IMG/VR virus record: IMGVR_UViG_3300008448_000782
Coordinates: 1 to 21,633 of that record
Length of the DNA: 21,633 nt
Origin: a virus
Direction: 5' to 3' (one strand)
The position numbers and the translations under genes were made by a program. Under the pieces are notes generated by a model. That model saw nothing but the letters and a program-made list of their open reading frames with translations, was not told the DNA's origin and did not search any database. Shown here piece after piece: positions 12,466-20,825 of the stretch; position 1 is the stretch's first letter; every line of letters begins with the position of its first letter.

Positions 12466-13407
12466 ATGGCAGTCAAAAGATATAATGGAACCTCCTGGGA
12501 TACTGTCGCAGGTCTAGGCGCTCAAGGCGCAGCAGCAACTTCCTCAAGTATTACTACTTGGGTAAAGACTGCATCAGGTGGCGAGACATCACTAACTGGT
12601 AACAGCGACTCATCTACAACTCTTGCCTACACTCCAGGACAAGAACAACTATTTATTAACGGCGTGCTACAAGTACGAGGTTCTGATTACACCGCAACCA
12701 ACGGTACATCTATCACTGGTCTTGCAGCACTTACTGCTGGAGACATTGCAACTGTTACTACAGTCAATGCTTTCTCCGTAACTGGAGCAGTACCACTATC
12801 TACAGTAACTGCTAACGGTGACTTGATTGTTGGTACATCTTCTGGTGCGGTAGGTCGCCTAGGTATTGGTTCATCTAGTCAGGTGCTTACAGTGTCTGGC
12901 GGTGTGCCTACTTGGGCTACACCAACTCCTGGCGCTTTAACTAAAATTACATCTGCAACATTTACGACTGTTGCCGATACAGGAACAACATTTGATGGTG
13001 TCTTTTCTAGTAGTTACAAAAATTATTATATTATGTTTTCTAATATTGTTGGCTCTGCTGCAAATACAGATTTTAATTTTCAATTACGCAAATCAGGACC
13101 AACAACTCAAGCAAGTGCGTATTATGGAGTCAGATTAACTGGTGCAACGGCAACAACAATATCAAATGGAACAGCCTTCAAGTTATTTACTTTACAAACT
13201 GAAGCATCATCAGGAGATATGACACTAGCCCGTAACGCAACCCCAACATCTTGGTCATATAAAGGTCTTGAGAGATACCTCAATACAACAATTTTGGCTG
13301 CTGGACACAACGACTCTGTTGGCGCTAATTCAGCATTAGGTTTTATCTTATCCGCATCATCTGGAACAATAAGCGGCTTTGTGGCTGTTTATGGATTGGC
13401 AGACTAA
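12466..13407 (+). CDS. Tail fibre / receptor-binding protein A (313 aa)
   Basis: A 313-aa fibre-type protein one base after the 610-aa fibre. The N-terminus (MAVKRYNGTSWDTV) is a common phage fibre opening. Residues 45-110 have the motif LAYTPGQEQLFINGVLQVRGSDYTATNG, typical of marine and freshwater fibres. Residues 115-155 hold ANGDLIVGTSSGAVGRLGIGSSSQVLTVSGG, a linker shared with the fibre two genes downstream. Residues 160-313 are a distinct beta-rich tip ending IXGFVAVYGLAD-like, the usual form of a jelly-roll receptor-binding end. The tip DNA (from about 13000) is visibly richer in A/T than the upstream part, suggesting exchange. It is followed by its likely partner, the 81-aa protein. 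Confidence 0.8.
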   Translation: MAVKRYNGTSWDTVAGLGAQGAAATSSSITTWVKTASGGETSLTGNSDSSTTLAYTPGQEQLFINGVLQVRGSDYTATNGTSITGLAALTAGDIATVTTVNAFSVTGAVPLSTVTANGDLIVGTSSGAVGRLGIGSSSQVLTVSGGVPTWATPTPGALTKITSATFTTVADTGTTFDGVFSSSYKNYYIMFSNIVGSAANTDFNFQLRKSGPTTQASAYYGVRLTGATATTISNGTAFKLFTLQTEASSGDMTLARNATPTSWSYKGLERYLNTTILAAGHNDSVGANSALGFILSASSGTISGFVAVYGLAD

Positions 13408-13652
13408 TGACAACTAAGGCAGAAAAAGTAACAGAGTTAAAAGCAGAATATCCAGTCCTGTTAAATGGTAGTGATGAGACTGGCTATACAGAATTAAATG
13501 CTGATGAATATGAAGCAAAGATTTCTGAATGGGCTGACAATATATTGGCTAAAGAAGCAGAAGAAACAGCCAAGGCTGCTGCAAAGCAGGCACTACTAGA
13601 TAAACTAGGTATTACAGCAGAAGAAGCACAACTACTTCTTGGAGGTAACTAA
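13407..13652 (+). CDS. Small helical protein paired with fibre A (81 aa), possible fibre chaperone
   Basis: An 81-aa acidic, helical protein coupled by TAATGA to fibre A and by TAATG to fibre B. Residues 1-45 have Tyr/Trp-containing helices (ELKAEYPVLLN, YEAKISEWADNI). Residues 48-80 form an Ala/Glu/Lys helix ending QALLDKLGITAEEAQLLLGG. The end matches the 73-aa protein behind fibre B in pattern: Ala-rich helix, then L..LG[IL]T..[DE]. Small proteins with this 'aaaxxaLlxxLGit.eE' end follow tail fibre genes in many phages, where chaperone or attachment roles are suspected. A fibre-specific assembly factor is my inference from pairing and size. Confidence 0.65.
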   Translation: MTTKAEKVTELKAEYPVLLNGSDETGYTELNADEYEAKISEWADNILAKEAEETAKAAAKQALLDKLGITAEEAQLLLGGN

Positions 13653-14296
13653 TGACACGCAGTAGAGATGTAGCAAACATTGATGGATTGCTAACAACCA
13701 CAGGTGATACCTATTATGCCTCTGCTGCTGCAACACCAGCACGCTTAGGCATTGGTTCTACTGGTCAGGTACTGTCTGTATCTGGTGGTGTTCCTGCTTG
13801 GGTTACTCCTACTAGCGGTAGTATGACATTGCTATCAACAACAACTTTGTCTGCTACAACAACAACTGTTTCTGGTATTTCACAATCTTACAAGCATCTT
13901 TATATTGAAATACTTGGAATAGATACATCTGCTTTTAATCCAACAATAAATTATCAAACAAATTCAACGGGCGTTGTTTGGAATGTTTTACAGGCTGCTT
14001 CCACAACAGGTGCTGCTTACTACAACACCAGCGGAACAGTCGGCAATGCTCAAAACTATGGTGGCAATTATGGTTCTGGCACAAACAAAGCCGCAATGTG
14101 GGTTTATGACTACACAGACGCGGTGAATCCAAAGGTTGGAACATTCACACAAAGATGGGTGAACGAAGGTGGTTCGCCAATTTTGTTCAATGGTCAACTG
14201 GTCGCAAATCATACTGCGGCAATGACATCATTCTCAATGGTAGTTTCAACAGGCAATTATGACGGCGGAACTATCAGAATTTACGGAGTAAACTAA
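13652..14296 (+). CDS. Tail fibre / receptor-binding protein B (214 aa)
   Basis: A 214-aa fibre-type protein, a shorter paralogue of fibre A. Residues 31-54 (nt 13742-13813) repeat the fibre A linker, 19 of 24 residues identical, with RLGIGSTGQVLSVSGGVP. The N-terminus (TRSRDVANIDGLLTTTGDTYYAS) is the usual short entry. Residues 58-214 are a beta-rich tip with conserved-looking YKHLYIEILGI and an end GGTIRIYGVN, comparable to the GFVAVYGLAD end of fibre A. The tips share little other sequence. It may be an alternative or co-assembled receptor-binding unit. Overlapping starts (TAATG) tie it to both neighbouring small helical proteins. Confidence 0.78.
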   Translation: MTRSRDVANIDGLLTTTGDTYYASAAATPARLGIGSTGQVLSVSGGVPAWVTPTSGSMTLLSTTTLSATTTTVSGISQSYKHLYIEILGIDTSAFNPTINYQTNSTGVVWNVLQAASTTGAAYYNTSGTVGNAQNYGGNYGSGTNKAAMWVYDYTDAVNPKVGTFTQRWVNEGGSPILFNGQLVANHTAAMTSFSMVVSTGNYDGGTIRIYGVN

Positions 14297-14517
14297 TGAG
14301 CAGACCACAAGTAAAAGAACACAACATTGAAACTGATGAAATTATTGTTCGCGATATGACCGATTTTGAATTGGCAGAGTACGAGGCATTTCAAGAAGCA
14401 GAGTTACAAAAAATTGAAGATGCCAAAATAGCAGCACTAGCCAAAGCAGCAGCAGAAGCAAAACTTGCTGCCCTTGGCTTAACAACAGACGACCTTAAAG
14501 CGCTCGGATTAAACTAA
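14296..14517 (+). CDS. Small helical protein paired with fibre B (73 aa), possible fibre chaperone
   Basis: A 73-aa protein with ATG 14296 overlapping the end of fibre B. The start SRPQVKEHNIETDEIIVRDMTDFELAEYE is typical of a small phage family, from recall, in which 'EHNIETGE...R.mt..E.a.yea' opens the protein. The rest is an Ala/Glu/Lys helix ending KLAALGLTTDDLKALGLN. The end matches the layout of the 81-aa protein after fibre A, although the starts differ. The fibre-plus-small-helix order is thus repeated. A helper that folds or attaches fibre B is the most natural reading, but no chaperone fold was recognised directly. Confidence 0.65.
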   Translation: MSRPQVKEHNIETDEIIVRDMTDFELAEYEAFQEAELQKIEDAKIAALAKAAAEAKLAALGLTTDDLKALGLN

Positions 14518-14536
14518 CAACGAAAGGTAGTAACTA

Positions 14537-14839
14537 ATGGCTACAGTAAGTAAGGTGCTGGCTAGAACAGCAGCAGCAACAACAAGCACAACCCTATACA
14601 CAACACCTGCTGGAACTACAGCAGTAGTAACTAACATTGTTATCTGCAACCCGACAACGGCTGGAGTTACAGCATCAATGACTATCAATAGCGTTGACCT
14701 ACTAGGTAGCGTCTCTATTGCTGCTAATACTTCTGCCTTCTTTGACTTAAAGCAGGTAGTACCAGCAACACAGGTAATCGCTGGAAGCGCATCATCAACA
14801 TCAGTTGACTTCCACATCAGCGGAGTGGAGATTGCATAA
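14537..14839 (+). CDS. Small beta-sandwich-like virion protein (100 aa)
   Basis: A 100-aa protein behind an AAAGG site in the 19-base gap after fibre B's partner. It is rich in Thr, Ala, Val and Ser and appears entirely beta: LYTTPAGTTAVVTNIVICNPT, then ASMTINSVDLLGSVSIAANTS, FFDLKQVV and VDFHISGVEIA. This pattern, a 'tplYt.P.gt.avvtni.icN.t' strand pair followed by a 'a.t.s.f.dlkqvl' part, is common in small proteins of phage fibre clusters. Proteins of this pattern are thought to be head or fibre-attached beta sandwiches. It is coupled by TAATG to the glycine-rich gene and may be its base or partner. Confidence 0.68.
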   Translation: MATVSKVLARTAAATTSTTLYTTPAGTTAVVTNIVICNPTTAGVTASMTINSVDLLGSVSIAANTSAFFDLKQVVPATQVIAGSASSTSVDFHISGVEIA

Positions 14840-16092
14840 TGGGTCAAACAGTTTATCCTTCTCTTAATTACCCACAATATCCTACTTGGACAACTAACAC
14901 ACGCCCATCAACTTCTGGTCTTGCTAATGGTTATGTTGGATTTAATTCAAGTTCTTCTAAATTAGAAATCTGGAACGGCGCTGCCTGGAAAGATATGCTA
15001 GGCGGAACTCCAGCAGCACTAATGCCTTGGGCTGGTACTGCAATTACATTTACTGGAGCAAGCAGCAATGTAAGTGGAGCAGATGTTGCATCTGTCGGCA
15101 AAGGTATGGCTAACTCAACAGCATCAACTTCTGCTGTACAAACTGGCGGAACAATGACAATCAATAGCGTGTCACTTGGTTCCTATGATTTTGTTATTAA
15201 GAATACATCTACAACTGTTAGTACATTTACTAACTCTGATTGGTTTACAACAACAGCAGATACCCGTTCGGCTTGGGTTGTTGTTCAAGGAGATTTAACT
15301 ATCCCTGCTGGAGTAACATTTATACCTAGCAACCGCAAATTATTTACTTGTATTTATGTAACTGGAAACTTAAATATTGGTGGAACAATATCAATGGCAA
15401 GCCGTGGTTCTAACCACAGCGGTACTGGTGTATCAGGCGGTTCTGTGACTGCTGGTGCAATTCGTATTGCAACTGGAACATACACATCAATTTCAAACCC
15501 AGAAGTTCCTGCTGCAGGTGGTGCTGCTGTTGCAAGTAGCACAAACGGTACCGCAGGTACTGGTGGCGGAACAGGCTCTGGTGGTGGTGGACAAAACGAT
15601 AACGCCGTAGCAGCCCCACACGGTGCTGCTGGAACATCATTCTCTGGCGGAGCAGGTGGTGGTGGTGGACGTTCTTATGGAGGAATTGGAACACCTAACG
15701 CTGGTGCTGCAGGTGGAGCAAACGGTGGTGCTGGTGGTGCTGCCCTTCCTGCTGGTGGACCATACCCAACTGCTAACCCTTCATCTGGTGGTTCTGGTAA
15801 CAACGGTGGAGCAGGTGGAGAAAACGCTGGTAACAATGGTACTGGTGGAGTTTTGTTCATTATTGTTGAAGGAACAATCTCTGGCGCAGGTTCAATTACT
15901 GTTAACGGTGCTGCTGGTACCGCTGCTTCTGAGCGCCCTGGTGGTGGCTCAGGTGGTGGAAGTGTTACAGTCTTATCAACAACAGACTCATCAACAATTA
16001 CACCAACCGCTGCAGGTGGTGCAGGTGTTTCTATTTATGGTTCTACTACTAATGGTGGAGCAGGAACTGCTAGAAAGTTGGCGATTGCATAA
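14839..16092 (+). CDS. Glycine-rich tail fibre adhesin candidate (417 aa)
   Basis: A 417-aa protein. Residues 1-55 have a fibre-type opening with RPSTSGLANGYVGFNSSSSKLEIWNGAAW. Residues 55-225 are beta-rich (GDLTIPAGVTFIPSNRKLF, YVTGNLNIGGTISM). Residues 227-338 are glycine-rich with Asn, Ala, Pro and Ser: runs such as GGGTGSGGGG, GGAGGGGGRSYGG and GGANGGAGGAA. A beta region VLFIIVEGTISGAGSITVNG and a second Gly patch (PGGGSGGGS, residues 367-375) follow. Glycine-rich blocks separated by variable loops form polyglycine II adhesins in the T-even-like S16 gp38 fibre tip; a similar design is possible here. It ends at the TAATG of the 115-aa gene. Fibre context is firm; the PGII fold is inference. 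Confidence 0.75.
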   Translation: MGQTVYPSLNYPQYPTWTTNTRPSTSGLANGYVGFNSSSSKLEIWNGAAWKDMLGGTPAALMPWAGTAITFTGASSNVSGADVASVGKGMANSTASTSAVQTGGTMTINSVSLGSYDFVIKNTSTTVSTFTNSDWFTTTADTRSAWVVVQGDLTIPAGVTFIPSNRKLFTCIYVTGNLNIGGTISMASRGSNHSGTGVSGGSVTAGAIRIATGTYTSISNPEVPAAGGAAVASSTNGTAGTGGGTGSGGGGQNDNAVAAPHGAAGTSFSGGAGGGGGRSYGGIGTPNAGAAGGANGGAGGAALPAGGPYPTANPSSGGSGNNGGAGGENAGNNGTGGVLFIIVEGTISGAGSITVNGAAGTAASERPGGGSGGGSVTVLSTTDSSTITPTAAGGAGVSIYGSTTNGGAGTARKLAIA

Positions 16093-16439
16093 TGACTACA
16101 CAAAAATATTTATTTCATAATGTTTATGGTGATGCTCAAAGTCTAATTGACAATAAGCCAGAAGATGTAATTGCCGTTCCATTTGGCTGGGACCCACAGA
16201 CAGAAGCCATTAGAGATTCAATCTTGAATCTTCTTGGCGTTTCTATTGCTGCATTGCCAGCGGTAGTTGCTTGGCGTGAGGAATATACAACTACATCACC
16301 AAGCCCTCTTGACCCACCAAAAGTAATTCCCGCTGGTTGGTTCGTGTTGCATCTTCACAATGTCCCACAATCAGACTGGAACTGGGGATATATCCAATCC
16401 GTCATTGACGGATGGGGTGACGAGTTAGATTATTTGTAA
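16092..16439 (+). CDS. Hypothetical protein paired with glycine-rich fibre (115 aa)
   Basis: A 115-aa protein coupled by TAATG to the glycine-rich adhesin gene, in the place where fibres A and B have their small partners. The start TTQKYLFHNVYGDAQSLIDN is followed by VIAVPFGWDPQTEAIRDSILNLLGVSIAALPAVVAWREE, with a mid-protein hydrophobic helix. A Trp-rich end carries WFVLHLHNVPQSDWNWGYIQSVIDGWGDEL. I do not recognise a family by name. Fibre assembly or attachment is possible, by position only. Its stop region overlaps the stop of the opposing minus-strand gene by 10 bases, leaving no space for a terminator. The DNA is more AT-rich than neighbouring structural genes. Confidence 0.68.
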   Translation: MTTQKYLFHNVYGDAQSLIDNKPEDVIAVPFGWDPQTEAIRDSILNLLGVSIAALPAVVAWREEYTTTSPSPLDPPKVIPAGWFVLHLHNVPQSDWNWGYIQSVIDGWGDELDYL

Positions 16440-17149
16440 GACTTCTTTGACCAGAAGTTTTTAATGTAGTGGTTAACTATAGTTGAGTTGAAGGTTTTAT
16501 CCTCACGCAACTTATGCTCACCATCTTCATAGTAATCAAACTCAGATTTCCAGTCAGTTCTTTTGAAAGGAATAAGTTGAACTAAAGGTGTTCCTTTTTC
16601 AACAACTCCCTCAAAGCCTTCTTTTACCCACATTGGGAACAAAGGTTCAAGGCTTGCCTTATCGCTATCAAGTATTGCTTCAATAGCCTTAAATGGTAGG
16701 TTCTTATGACCGACTGGTGGCAATACTAAAACAGAATAACCCTTTGGCGTATTGGGAATCCACTTGTTCATAAACTTAAATACAGAGTTTGTATATCCAA
16801 GTGGACTCTCAATATGCTGAGAGTTTTCTCCGTGTTGTTCAAAGACTTCAAGACTAGAACGCCAAGTTATTCTTGGTCCAGTTATAGTCTGTTTGACCTG
16901 CACATCTGACCACAATGGGATGATGTACCCAGAGGTTAACATATCTAACATTGGTACACATTTCTTGAATGTAGCGTTAGACATACGATTCTCAAGAATA
17001 AACTTTTTTCCATCTGGGTTATCAGGAGAAATCTGATACGGAGTCATATCCCTGTGCCACTTAGGTAGGGCTTGACTGGCTGGAAATGGGCGGTCACACA
17101 AATCGTATGAGTACTTATCTTTAGCAATAAAAGTAATTTTTTGAGTCAT
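16430..17149 (-). CDS. Antisense accessory gene, DUF6065-like (239 aa)
   Basis: A 239-aa protein read against the late operon. It has conserved-looking blocks: CDRPFPASQALPKWHRDMTPYQ near the start, FKKCVPMLDMLTSGYIIPLWSDV (residues 60-84), SPLGYTNSVFKFMNKWIPNTPKGYSVLVLPPVGH (residues 112-147), VEKGTPLVQLIPFKRTDWKSEF (residues 183-204) and a NHYIKNFWSKKSYK end. The 'P.p...+P.W......C.P..D.m..GY.iPl..D' and 'GtPl.Q.iPFkR..W' pattern fits DUF6065-type phage proteins from recall, for which I know no function. It has no ribosome site and seems leaderless. The protein looks intact, so it is maintained. It is a likely moron or host-modifying gene. Confidence 0.82.
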   Translation of the reverse strand: MTQKITFIAKDKYSYDLCDRPFPASQALPKWHRDMTPYQISPDNPDGKKFILENRMSNATFKKCVPMLDMLTSGYIIPLWSDVQVKQTITGPRITWRSSLEVFEQHGENSQHIESPLGYTNSVFKFMNKWIPNTPKGYSVLVLPPVGHKNLPFKAIEAILDSDKASLEPLFPMWVKEGFEGVVEKGTPLVQLIPFKRTDWKSEFDYYEDGEHKLREDKTFNSTIVNHYIKNFWSKKSYK

Positions 17150-17156
17150 AGTGTTT

Positions 17157-17165
17157 AATATACCA
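17157..17165 (-). promoter_or_regulatory. Extended -10 promoter for leaderless antisense gene
   Basis: On the minus strand TGGTATATT (TGn plus TATATT) ends 7 bases before the ATG at 17149. This distance places the transcription start on or next to the start codon. No Shine-Dalgarno lies between, consistent with leaderless expression. Confidence 0.6.
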
Positions 17166-17198: not shown

Positions 17199-17936
17199 AT
17201 GGTAGGACCAAAAGAGACAGTAGCAATTGGATGGTGCGACAACGGAACCACTGATGGCAAGTTCACGGAAGGTCTTATGACCGCTGTGATTGCAGGTGGT
17301 TCCAATGGTATGCCTATCCACACAAGCATCCGAGTTCAGGGTAATCAGATAGGTCGTCAGCGTCAAGTCCTGTGGGACTACTGGGCTGACAATATCAAGA
17401 CCGACTGGATTCTATGGGTTGACTCAGACATTGTTCTGACTTTAGACGTAATGCAAAAACTCTGGCAGACAGCAGACAAGCACCACCGTCCTGTTGTCAG
17501 CGGGGTTTACTTCATCTCTAAACAGAATGAAGGAACTCTGATGCAACCTTATCCAGTCTTGTTCAATGATGTATCTGAATTTCAGATTCAGTACCTGCAC
17601 CCACTACCTGACAACCAAGTTGTCAAGTGTGACTCAGCAGGGTTTGGTCTTGTCTTAATGCACAAGTCTATTATAGAAAAGATGAGAAGCACACATCCTG
17701 GCGAGTCTATGTTCTTAGAGACTGGCAGCGCCAATGATGATGAGTTTATTGGTGAGGACATTATCTTCTTTAGAAAGATGAAGAAGGCTGGCATCCCACT
17801 ACACGCACATACTGGGGCGTTAGTAAAGCATATGAAGAGGTTCTCTCTTGATGTGGATTACTACGCTATGTACTGGAATATGCAAGCAATTAAAAAGAAG
17901 ATTGAAGAAAGTAAACAACAAACACAAGGAGACTAA
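17199..17936 (+). CDS. GT-A-type glycosyltransferase (GT2-like, 245 aa)
   Basis: A 245-aa soluble protein with AGGGGGA at 17188-17194 before ATG 17199. Near the N-terminus AIGWCDNG begins a Rossmann-like half, and RQVLWDYW is the following helix. The key block TDWILWVDSDIVL (residues 68-80) carries D75-S-D77, the DxD motif that binds metal and nucleotide sugar. SGVYF (101-105) and the CDSAGFGLVLMHKSIIEK block (144-161) are acceptor-side features of GT-A enzymes. GEDIIFFRKMKKAGIPLHAHTG (residues 185-206) supplies the catalytic-base-type ED and a late His, with H211 near the end. It probably transfers a sugar to phage virion protein, phage DNA or host surface; which one cannot be told. There is no membrane anchor. 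Confidence 0.82.
   Translation: MVGPKETVAIGWCDNGTTDGKFTEGLMTAVIAGGSNGMPIHTSIRVQGNQIGRQRQVLWDYWADNIKTDWILWVDSDIVLTLDVMQKLWQTADKHHRPVVSGVYFISKQNEGTLMQPYPVLFNDVSEFQIQYLHPLPDNQVVKCDSAGFGLVLMHKSIIEKMRSTHPGESMFLETGSANDDEFIGEDIIFFRKMKKAGIPLHAHTGALVKHMKRFSLDVDYYAMYWNMQAIKKKIEESKQQTQGD
17926..17931 (+). promoter_or_regulatory. Ribosome binding site for GTG start of 737-aa tail gene
   Basis: AAGGAG ends 5 bases before GTG 17937, inside the end of the glycosyltransferase gene, supporting the GTG start immediately after the upstream TAA. Confidence 0.65.
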
Positions 17937-20150
17937 GTGGCTGGTCGTGATATTACCGAAGGTCGTGCAACGCGGGCGATTGCGGTTGACGTTGGTGTCG
18001 TAGCAACTTCTGCCATTTGGCAAAACACAGATATTGCATACGATACTGCTATTGGTGGTATGCCATTCATCTATGCCATTAGCGACGGACGACCATACAT
18101 TCGTCAGACTGCACCCTTTAAGAAGGAACAGTTTGATAACCAGACAGAACCAGGCGAGCAGTCACTTACTGGTTGGTGGATTCGTAGTCAGTCATCATTC
18201 CATTATGGAGATGGCATTACATTCTATGACCCAGCCACAACCACATCCAACTCACCTGACCACTACCGCTATGCAGAGTCTAAGGGTGTAGATGTCTGGA
18301 CACCAGGACAGGTAACTCTCCTTAATGATGTCAACGTTGGTCACATAACAACTGGTGATATCCAAGCCAACGGACGAGCCAACCAATACTTACGCTCTAT
18401 CAAGTGGAACAACACATCAGGCGTGCTACTGGCAGATGAGTACGACGTTGACAAGATTGATACTACTGGAACTGAAACACACTTCATCAACTACAACGCT
18501 GGTACAGACTCACCTGTGTATGCCATCTGTGATGATGGAACATATGCCTTCTGGATTACCAATACATCAACCAAGAAGACTGTATACAAGAAGCCTTTGA
18601 CTGGTACCTCTGCATCTACTGCAGATGTGACATTGATGTTTGATGAAATTGGCACCATCTCTAACGCAACAATGGAGTACGTCAAAGAGCGTATTGTCCT
18701 ATGTGCTGACAACAAGGTATATGAGTTTGCTCCATCTGCTGTGGCTATGCCTACTGCTGTATATACGCACCCGTCATCTACTCACGTCTTTACATCAGTA
18801 GCAGCATCTGGTGCTGCCATCTATGTTGCTGGGTACAACGGCATCCAATCAACAATTATTAAATTTACTTTGTCTACCGCTGGTGTAATGCCAACTCTTA
18901 CCTCAGCCATTACTGCAGCAGAGTTTCCTGCTGGTGAAGTAGTACACAAGATTCACTACTACCTTGGCTATATGATGATTGGAACTAGTGAGGGTATCCG
19001 TGTTGCTCAAGTAGGAGACGACGGAAGCCTGAATTATGGACCTCTAATTGTAGAAACATCTCAGCCAGTCTATGACTTTGCATCTCGTGACCACTATGTC
19101 TGGTGTGCTACAGGTGTAGATGGTGAACCAGGTCTTATTCGTATTGACTTAAGTGCTGAGATTGAACCGCTTCGCTTTGCTTGGGCTAACGACCTTTATT
19201 ATGGCGGTGTAACAGGACGTTATACAACAGCCTGTGCTTTTGCTAATGGTACTGACCAACTAATCTTCTGTAGCAACGGAGATACAGTGGGTGGAACCAT
19301 TGTCAACAAGGCAATGACATCAGGTGTTGCAACATTGACAACCGCATCTAGCCACGGTTTAGTAGCAGGTGACTCAATCTGGGTTGAAGGAGTTGACTCT
19401 AACTTCAATTCAACTACAGGTCCTTGGACTGTTACATCTGCAACAACTACAACATTTACTTATACAAGTGCAGTCACAGCAACTGTTGCATCTACTGCTG
19501 TTTCATCTGCTACTGCTGTAGTTAATAAACCTGGTGCTGTTTATCTTGAGGATGAAACACAACTGATGCCAACTGGTTACCTACAGACTGGCTACATTAG
19601 ATTCCAAACACTTGAGCCTAAAAACTTTAAGCGTCTTGTTGCCCGTGGTGATTTCACTTATGGCTCTATGACTTTAGAAACTGTTGATGCAGATGGTCTT
19701 GAGTATGACCACATCTCCTATGACGTATCAGTCCCACCTATTGAGGTAACTACATCTCAGCCACAAAGCGCACAAGAGTATGTTGCCTATAAGTTTATTA
19801 TGTACCGAGATGGAACTACCCCATCATTGGGTCCTATTATGAAGGGCTATCAGGCGAAGGCAACTATTGCTACACCTCGCCAGCGAGTAATGAGATTTCC
19901 CGTCTATTGCTACGACGTGGAGACTGACAGATACAACGTGCAGGTTGGATACGAAGGCAGAGCCTTTGACCGAATTGCAGAACTAGAATCCATTGAAGAA
20001 AATGGTGACGTTGTAACTTGGCAGGACTTAACCACAGGCGAATCTCGCCAGGTTGTCATTGAGCAAATTTCATTTACCCGCCTAACTCCACCTGACCGAG
20101 GCTTTACTGGCTACGGTGGTGTTATTGAGATGACCATTAGGACCGTATAA
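17937..20150 (+). CDS. Large tail protein, propeller-like, possible tail nozzle (737 aa)
   Basis: A 737-aa beta-rich protein. The N-terminus (MAGRDITEGRATRAI) precedes a region with GGMPFIYAISDGRPYIRQTAPFKKEQFDNQTEPGEQSL. From about residue 160 to 450 there are repeated short beta units with YAICDDGTYAFWIT, YVKERIVLCADNKVYEF, IYVAGYNG, YMMIGTSEGIRV, HYVWCATGV and GTDQLIFCSNGD, compatible with a beta-propeller. Residues 456-528 are an inserted Ig-like module (VNKAMTSGVATLTTASSHGL... FTYTSAV). After it, the main chain resumes with GAVYLEDETQLMPTGYLQTGYIRF and continues to a beta-rich end. In short-tailed phages such as T7 the nozzle protein is also propeller-like, which with the lack of a tape measure suggests a nozzle. 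A minor tail protein remains possible. Confidence 0.65.
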   Translation: MAGRDITEGRATRAIAVDVGVVATSAIWQNTDIAYDTAIGGMPFIYAISDGRPYIRQTAPFKKEQFDNQTEPGEQSLTGWWIRSQSSFHYGDGITFYDPATTTSNSPDHYRYAESKGVDVWTPGQVTLLNDVNVGHITTGDIQANGRANQYLRSIKWNNTSGVLLADEYDVDKIDTTGTETHFINYNAGTDSPVYAICDDGTYAFWITNTSTKKTVYKKPLTGTSASTADVTLMFDEIGTISNATMEYVKERIVLCADNKVYEFAPSAVAMPTAVYTHPSSTHVFTSVAASGAAIYVAGYNGIQSTIIKFTLSTAGVMPTLTSAITAAEFPAGEVVHKIHYYLGYMMIGTSEGIRVAQVGDDGSLNYGPLIVETSQPVYDFASRDHYVWCATGVDGEPGLIRIDLSAEIEPLRFAWANDLYYGGVTGRYTTACAFANGTDQLIFCSNGDTVGGTIVNKAMTSGVATLTTASSHGLVAGDSIWVEGVDSNFNSTTGPWTVTSATTTTFTYTSAVTATVASTAVSSATAVVNKPGAVYLEDETQLMPTGYLQTGYIRFQTLEPKNFKRLVARGDFTYGSMTLETVDADGLEYDHISYDVSVPPIEVTTSQPQSAQEYVAYKFIMYRDGTTPSLGPIMKGYQAKATIATPRQRVMRFPVYCYDVETDRYNVQVGYEGRAFDRIAELESIEENGDVVTWQDLTTGESRQVVIEQISFTRLTPPDRGFTGYGGVIEMTIRTV

Positions 20151-20357: not shown

Positions 20358-20825
20358 ATGAAACCTGTAGCCAAGAAAGCCACACCTGCTGCAATTGCTG
20401 TGCTCCGTCAGGCGACGGCTCTATCTCCAAGGAGAAAGAAAGTATCAGATGGTTTACTCCCTTCTGCTGCTCACCTCAAAGCCAGTCCTGATTCTGACCA
20501 CAACACAGGGCTTGCAGTAGATTTAACTCACGACCCAGCAAACAACATTGATTGTGCTGAGATTTATGAAGAGTTGAAGAAAGATAAGAGAGTTAAATAT
20601 CTAATCTTCAAGGGACAGATATGGATTCCTGGTAGAGGTGACAAGCCTTATACTGGCAGCAACCCACACAACAAGCATTTACATATATCAATTAAGGATA
20701 ACTGCGGAGATGACACATCCCCTTGGTTCCCTTGGTTAGACAAACCAGTTTACAAAACTGTTGACCAAGCCAGGTTAGCAGCCTTAAGACTGAAGCCCCT
20801 ACCGAAAAAGAAGGAAAAGAAATGA
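20358..20825 (+). CDS. Endolysin, M15-type D-Ala-D-Ala peptidase-like (155 aa)
   Basis: A 155-aa soluble protein in the lysis cluster. Residues 46-55 read SDHNTGLAVD, matching the SxHxxGxAxD zinc-binding signature (H48, D55). KHLHIS (residues 106-111) supplies the late His ligand (H109). These are the marks of M15-family or VanY-like peptidases, which cut peptide cross-links of peptidoglycan. The N-terminus is basic (MKPVAKKATP) without a signal peptide, so release needs a holin. The C-terminus after residue 128 is a basic tail (LKPLPKKKEKK) rather than a recognisable wall-binding domain. Start ATG 20358 lies 3 bases after the previous stop, and the end overlaps the next gene by 4 bases (ATGA). 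Confidence 0.85.
   Translation: MKPVAKKATPAAIAVLRQATALSPRRKKVSDGLLPSAAHLKASPDSDHNTGLAVDLTHDPANNIDCAEIYEELKKDKRVKYLIFKGQIWIPGRGDKPYTGSNPHNKHLHISIKDNCGDDTSPWFPWLDKPVYKTVDQARLAALRLKPLPKKKEKK

Follow-up and report, generated by a model that had tools for sequence, protein, structure and literature searches.

Introduction

A lambdoid moron is an extra gene among the late genes of a phage that has its own promoter and is patchily present. In hafunaviruses, which are archaeal myoviruses, the adhesin is the host-range determinant and a small-protein gene then follows (PMC8651126). In cyanophages that carry a tryptophan halogenase, the idea that this enzyme protects against antibiotics has been called speculative (PMC2984593). 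Both of these virus groups hold relatives of one protein family, phrog_7084, for which PHROGs v4 gives no function and to which we assign a predicted fold and a genomic context here; DUF6065, its counterpart in Pfam, had no mention in the literature that we searched.

We analysed g19, a phrog_7084 gene in a 21,633-nucleotide stretch (the window, positions 1 to 21,633) of the virus record IMGVR_UViG_3300008448_000782. The host of this virus is probably a freshwater actinobacterium; the nearest named relatives of its capsid protein are those of Streptomyces phages (53%). Like a lambdoid moron, g19 is an extra gene among late genes with patchy presence, and it may have a promoter of its own; unlike one, it is convergent and has a predicted leaderless start, and a simple scan of its own strand found no terminator for it. 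The gene order is that of the hafunaviruses HF2, HSTV-2, HCTV-6 and Hardygib1, where a tail fibre, a Gly-rich adhesin, one or more small proteins and a convergent homologue follow one another, although this homologue is only about 30% identical. The tryptophan halogenase cassette of cyanomyoviruses (syn9, S-CREM1, S-RIM44, Sf-FR1, P-TIM40) also holds a family member, mostly beside fibre genes; that member is co-directional, whereas g19 is antisense and has no halogenase in its window. The gene, the fold, the promoter motif, the linkage and the neighbours described below were all obtained by computation. They lead us to favour a reading that we give about an even chance of being right, namely that g19 is a self-promoted, moron-like accessory gene in a g17-g18-g19 cassette, with a dUTPase-fold product that works with the tail-fibre/adhesin module.

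Results

ORF analysis of the window gives g19 an ATG start and no internal stop (Table 1). The initial annotation had described it as the sole minus-strand gene of the late run, and we agree: the plus-strand genes around it include capsid, adaptor and fibre genes by family matches, and the other minus-strand ORFs of at least 80 aa in this run lie mostly inside plus-strand genes and look spurious. A 122-aa minus-strand ORF over g16 (14509-14877), which is found again in a near-identical contig, is probably spurious as well. The overlap with the end of the plus-strand gene is exactly 10 bp, as had been noted, and the partner is g18. Since the phrog_7084 profile matches g19 over its whole length (residues 3-235, E 9e-43) and the gene is under strong purifying selection, with dN/dS of about 0.03-0.15 among close copies, g19 is a real gene rather than a chance ORF. 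Homologues are present in 194 collected loci. The GC content of g19 is 0.382 against 0.447 for the window and lies below that of every other gene measured, which fits the expectation for an acquired gene.

Table 1. Genes and predicted signals around g19 in the window.
Feature	Position	Strand	Description
g17	14839..16092	+	417-aa Gly-rich adhesin/fibre-like protein
g18	16092..16439	+	115-aa small protein, convergent with g19, without family match
Terminator-like hairpin	16438..16461	+	AAGACUUCU-UUGACC-AGAAGUUUU(U); 9 bp, U tract
g19	16430..17149	-	239-aa phrog_7084 / DUF6065-like protein, predicted dUTPase fold
Candidate extended -10 box	17157..17165	-	TGGTATATT; hexamer ends 7 nt before g19 ATG
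g20	17199..17936	+	glycosyltransferase (phrog_34859), divergent neighbour of g19

The earlier label of g19 as DUF6065-type holds as a remote kinship at the superfamily level only, via intermediates: 59 of the 90 relatives in an alignment that includes g19 match PF19541 (DUF6065; best E 1.5e-11), while g19 alone has no Pfam match up to E 10, the PF19541 cut-off included. Bacterial DUF6065 members are about 25-30% identical to g19, and a genome-contig search with the single g19 protein as query returned no match. Across the 90 aligned sequences K62, C64, P66, D69, G74, D161, Q191, R197 and Y228 are invariant or at least 97% conserved, and K-x-C-x-P-x-x-D forms the invariant site of the family. 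Loci L197, L203 and L204 have four tandem paralogues of the family per phage, an arrangement that suggests diversification and has no ready explanation for an enzyme.

Structure prediction, proposed at the outset as a way to look for an enzyme fold, returned that of dUTPases. The best 50 PDB matches of the AlphaFold model of g19 (pLDDT 96.4, pTM 0.90) in Foldseek comprise trimeric dUTPases plus a single dCTP deaminase, with a probability of about 1 for nearly all of these 50 and E values from 2e-3. A second AlphaFold model, of a rhizobial DUF6065-type protein (pLDDT 94.5), gives the same classes among its top 50 PDB matches (best E 9e-5), although the alignments behind the two models overlap in part, so that they are not fully independent. 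TM-scores normalised to the g19 query lie at a low 0.3-0.4; a match limited to the core domain would give such values in a protein that has about 100 residues more. At the profile level, whole-length (global) hhalign gave no working alignment of the family to dUTPase; a local alignment to the true dUTPase profile covers 71 columns, keeps motifs II-IV in register and scores higher than 43 controls (P 0.0011, the best of 44 alignments tried). A sequence search of the PDB gave no significant match, its weak top matches being dUTPases (E 0.78). The motif III catalytic Asp is matched by D161 and the motif IV Gln by Q191, so that g19 partly keeps two of the five dUTPase motifs. Thus g19 appears to share its core fold with the dUTPase/dCTP deaminase family (PF00692), from which it differs in its extra length of about 100 residues and in having a conserved site of its own. 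The models argue for the same fold as the trimeric dUTPases in a protein that by motif is no dUTPase, and g19 may form trimers as well. For the phrog_7084/DUF6065 branch, previously unassigned, this predicted fold is new. In S-CREM1, the depositors annotated ORF 70 (L349:6672-7409) as a 'triphosphate nucleotidohydrolase', which independently agrees with a dUTPase fold.

Such a fold could mean that g19 serves as a nucleotide enzyme or in dUTPase-like signalling, hydrolysing or binding (deoxy)nucleotides and so protecting phage DNA synthesis or unlocking a repressor, with its proximity to fibre genes being incidental. Staphylococcal phage dUTPases unlock the repressor Stl. The aligned D161 and Q191 would suit such a role, and so would the neighbours of some homologues, with ribonucleotide reductase nearby in HF2, Hardygib1 and S-RIM4 and thymidylate synthase in mincapviruses; however, the family/dUTPase profile alignment lacks the motif II Arg-Ser as well as motif V, K-x-C-x-P-x-x-D is foreign to the dUTPase motifs, as many as four tandem paralogues in one phage would be odd for a housekeeping enzyme, and 10 of 10 tested genomes with DUF6065-type genes also match a true dUTPase. 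We therefore consider a nucleotide role unlikely.

The reading that we favour, in which g19 works with the fibre module, draws on its neighbours. It had been described as bounded by a fibre gene and a glycosyltransferase gene. The second of these stands, since g20 matches phrog_34859 with E 7e-106 (its Pfam glycosyltransferase match is below the cut-off), but the adjacent gene on the other side is g18, and the fibre-like g17 lies one gene further. We considered g18 as a phrog_7759-type small fibre-associated protein and rejected this, as it is not in that family; no distant relatives of g18 were found among the collected sequences, and no halovirus homologue was detected. The g18 gene occurs only where a close g19 is present; on contigs that extend far enough, no close match of g17 or g18 was seen to lack g19. 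In five loci (L003-L007) close copies of g19, 85-97% identical, lie antisense beside g18 and g17 while the far side varies; with no glycosyltransferase next to g19 in these close relatives, g20 lies outside the travelling cassette.

More distant relatives extend this pattern in part. Among 86 loci that hold both a fibre gene and a glycosyltransferase, 61, from the same phage group, lack the family; a member of any kind is found in 25, mostly a distant one, and in most of these remaining loci the member is roughly 30% identical, occupies the same region and is co-directional. Among members of at least 45% identity, both neighbours are co-directional in 3 of 22 cases, compared with 112 of 154 baseline genes, and on the tree the orientation of the family switches at least 7 times. 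The gene is thus patchy and varies in orientation, rather than fixed and co-linear with late genes in all relatives. In one cyanophage subclade, the homologue lies directly behind a tryptophan halogenase in all 14 records (8 phages), mostly beside tail-fibre genes and, in annotated examples, often with 2OG-Fe(II) oxygenases following it. Over 79 family loci a tryptophan halogenase is found in 12 and a 2OG oxygenase in 12 (here the control is a single phage group and not matched), and halogenase, 2OG and fibre-type partners recur in IMG/VR loci. The tie of the family to adhesin and halogenase cassettes that these contexts suggest is, like the fold, new.

Other contexts are points against a link to fibres. 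The S-RIM4 homologue sits near ribonucleotide reductase and transaldolase, away from fibre genes; those of mincapviruses are likewise away from fibre genes and lie beside thymidylate synthase; some relatives adjoin an endolysin or a carbamoyltransferase instead; and in bacterial chromosomes with homologues we found no conserved neighbour and, in these bacterial loci, no halogenase or 2OG match. One homologue (L247) comes from a 24.9-kb contig that was binned with a Microbacteriaceae MAG but may belong to a phage.

Could the neighbours simply mark an accessory hot spot? In that case g19 would be an anti-defence or superinfection-exclusion moron at a permissive site, as its patchy presence, low GC, predicted promoter, orientation switches and tandem paralogues would allow. 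The halogenase adjacency in 14 of 14 records and the constant linkage to g17 and g18 are more specific than a hot spot predicts, and we regard this explanation as distinctly improbable.

Upstream of its start, g19 has a candidate promoter of its own. Many plus-strand genes of the window are preceded by Shine-Dalgarno-like sequences, and none was found at the g19 ATG. The absence of such a site together with TGGTATATT 7 nt upstream suggests a leaderless, self-promoted transcript, whose start and timing we infer from this arrangement. Leaderless genes, over 20% of all genes in Actinobacteria, are marked by a -10-like signal some 12 bp ahead of the start codon (PMC3160421). A consensus sigma-70 promoter scan of the window stayed at chance level, the g19 motif is common in AT-rich DNA, and TGNTATANT has one match in the 21.6 kb where 3.4 are expected, a count that is not significant alone; the argument rests instead on the spacing and recurrence of the motif. 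Upstream regions of close g19 homologues are otherwise mostly dissimilar. Yet among 18 close-clade genes with an upstream neighbour on the opposite strand, 7 have TGNTANNNT at a distance of 5-7 nt from the start; for control genes the figure is 11 of 271 (5-8 nt; p 2e-5). This p value is optimistic because the motif was spotted in the same sequences that were counted and the relatives are not independent. In halovirus HF2 the homologue HrrHF2_475 starts directly behind the repeat IR6. When nine HF2 repeats were cloned in front of a reporter, each of them showed promoter activity (PMC8707807). IR6 is not named among the nine, but the tally of 7 class I and 2 class II repeats lets us deduce that it is one of them. 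The self-promoted, convergent layout of the g19 family, apparently recurring in unrelated viruses at unrelated insertion sites, is also new. With its own extended -10 box, low GC, patchy presence and orientation switches, g19 fits well the autonomous accessory (moron) gene that the initial annotation had envisaged.

The annotation had also seen no space for a terminator between the converging genes, and here we differ: the g18 reading frame stops at a U-tract hairpin that lies within the 3' end of g19 (Table 1) and could end the plus-strand transcript. It folds with -7.2 kcal/mol (z -2.9) and is kept in relatives, being identical in L003 and L004, with a paired synonymous change in L005 and a weaker fold in L006; the consensus terminator scan, which stayed at chance level like the promoter scan, missed it, presumably owing to its few G-C pairs. 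With no terminator found on the minus strand, read-through of the g19 transcript into g18 and g17 is possible. The suggestion that the layout mainly yields an antisense transcript damping the fibre genes early could draw on such read-through, and on the long counter-transcripts of halovirus HF2 (PMC8707807), but the strong purifying selection on the g19 protein and the many family homologues that are co-directional with their neighbours indicate that the coding function is what is kept, making antisense damping very unlikely and not needed as an explanation for g19.

Discussion

How might g19 work as a self-promoted accessory gene of the fibre module? We propose that g17, g18 and g19 form a three-gene cassette at the end of the tail-fibre operon, in which the leaderless extended -10 promoter, thanks to the convergent layout, would let g19 be made independently of the late transcript, while the plus-strand transcript would end at the hairpin inside the 3' end of g19. 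The product would have the tail-fibre/adhesin module as its target or its partner and would share a pathway with the halogenases, 2OG-Fe(II) oxygenases and glycosyltransferases encoded around its relatives. This fibre-related activity is suggested by genomic context; the conserved site of g19 points to no particular substrate.

More generally, phrog_7084/DUF6065 may represent a new kind of dUTPase-fold protein, an enzyme or an assembly factor, through which the receptor-binding tips of tail fibres mature in bacterial and archaeal viruses; tryptophan halogenases and 2OG oxygenases would be its partners. We think this tentative proposal unlikely as it stands. If it is true, halogenated or hydroxylated residues would be expected in virion adhesins. 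The position of the cassette beside fibre genes suggests that the tryptophan halogenases of cyanophages have their target in the virion, which could be checked by mass spectrometry. An unnamed family of cyanophages, haloviruses and freshwater phages thereby becomes testable, with a predicted fold, a likely active site and a strict partner in cyanophages.

Several minor features of the window concern other genes. Relatives of g21 (17937-20150, 737 aa, phrog_11667-like) lie near a g19-family gene in 19 collected loci, also in otherwise unrelated phages. The product of g22 (20358-20825), a possible endolysin, resembles VanY weakly and below significance (E 0.069). Finally, g13 (12466-13407) and g15 (13652-14296) share an LGIGS-x-x-QVL-x-VSGGVP-x-W-like motif, probably a repeated fibre-shaft module.
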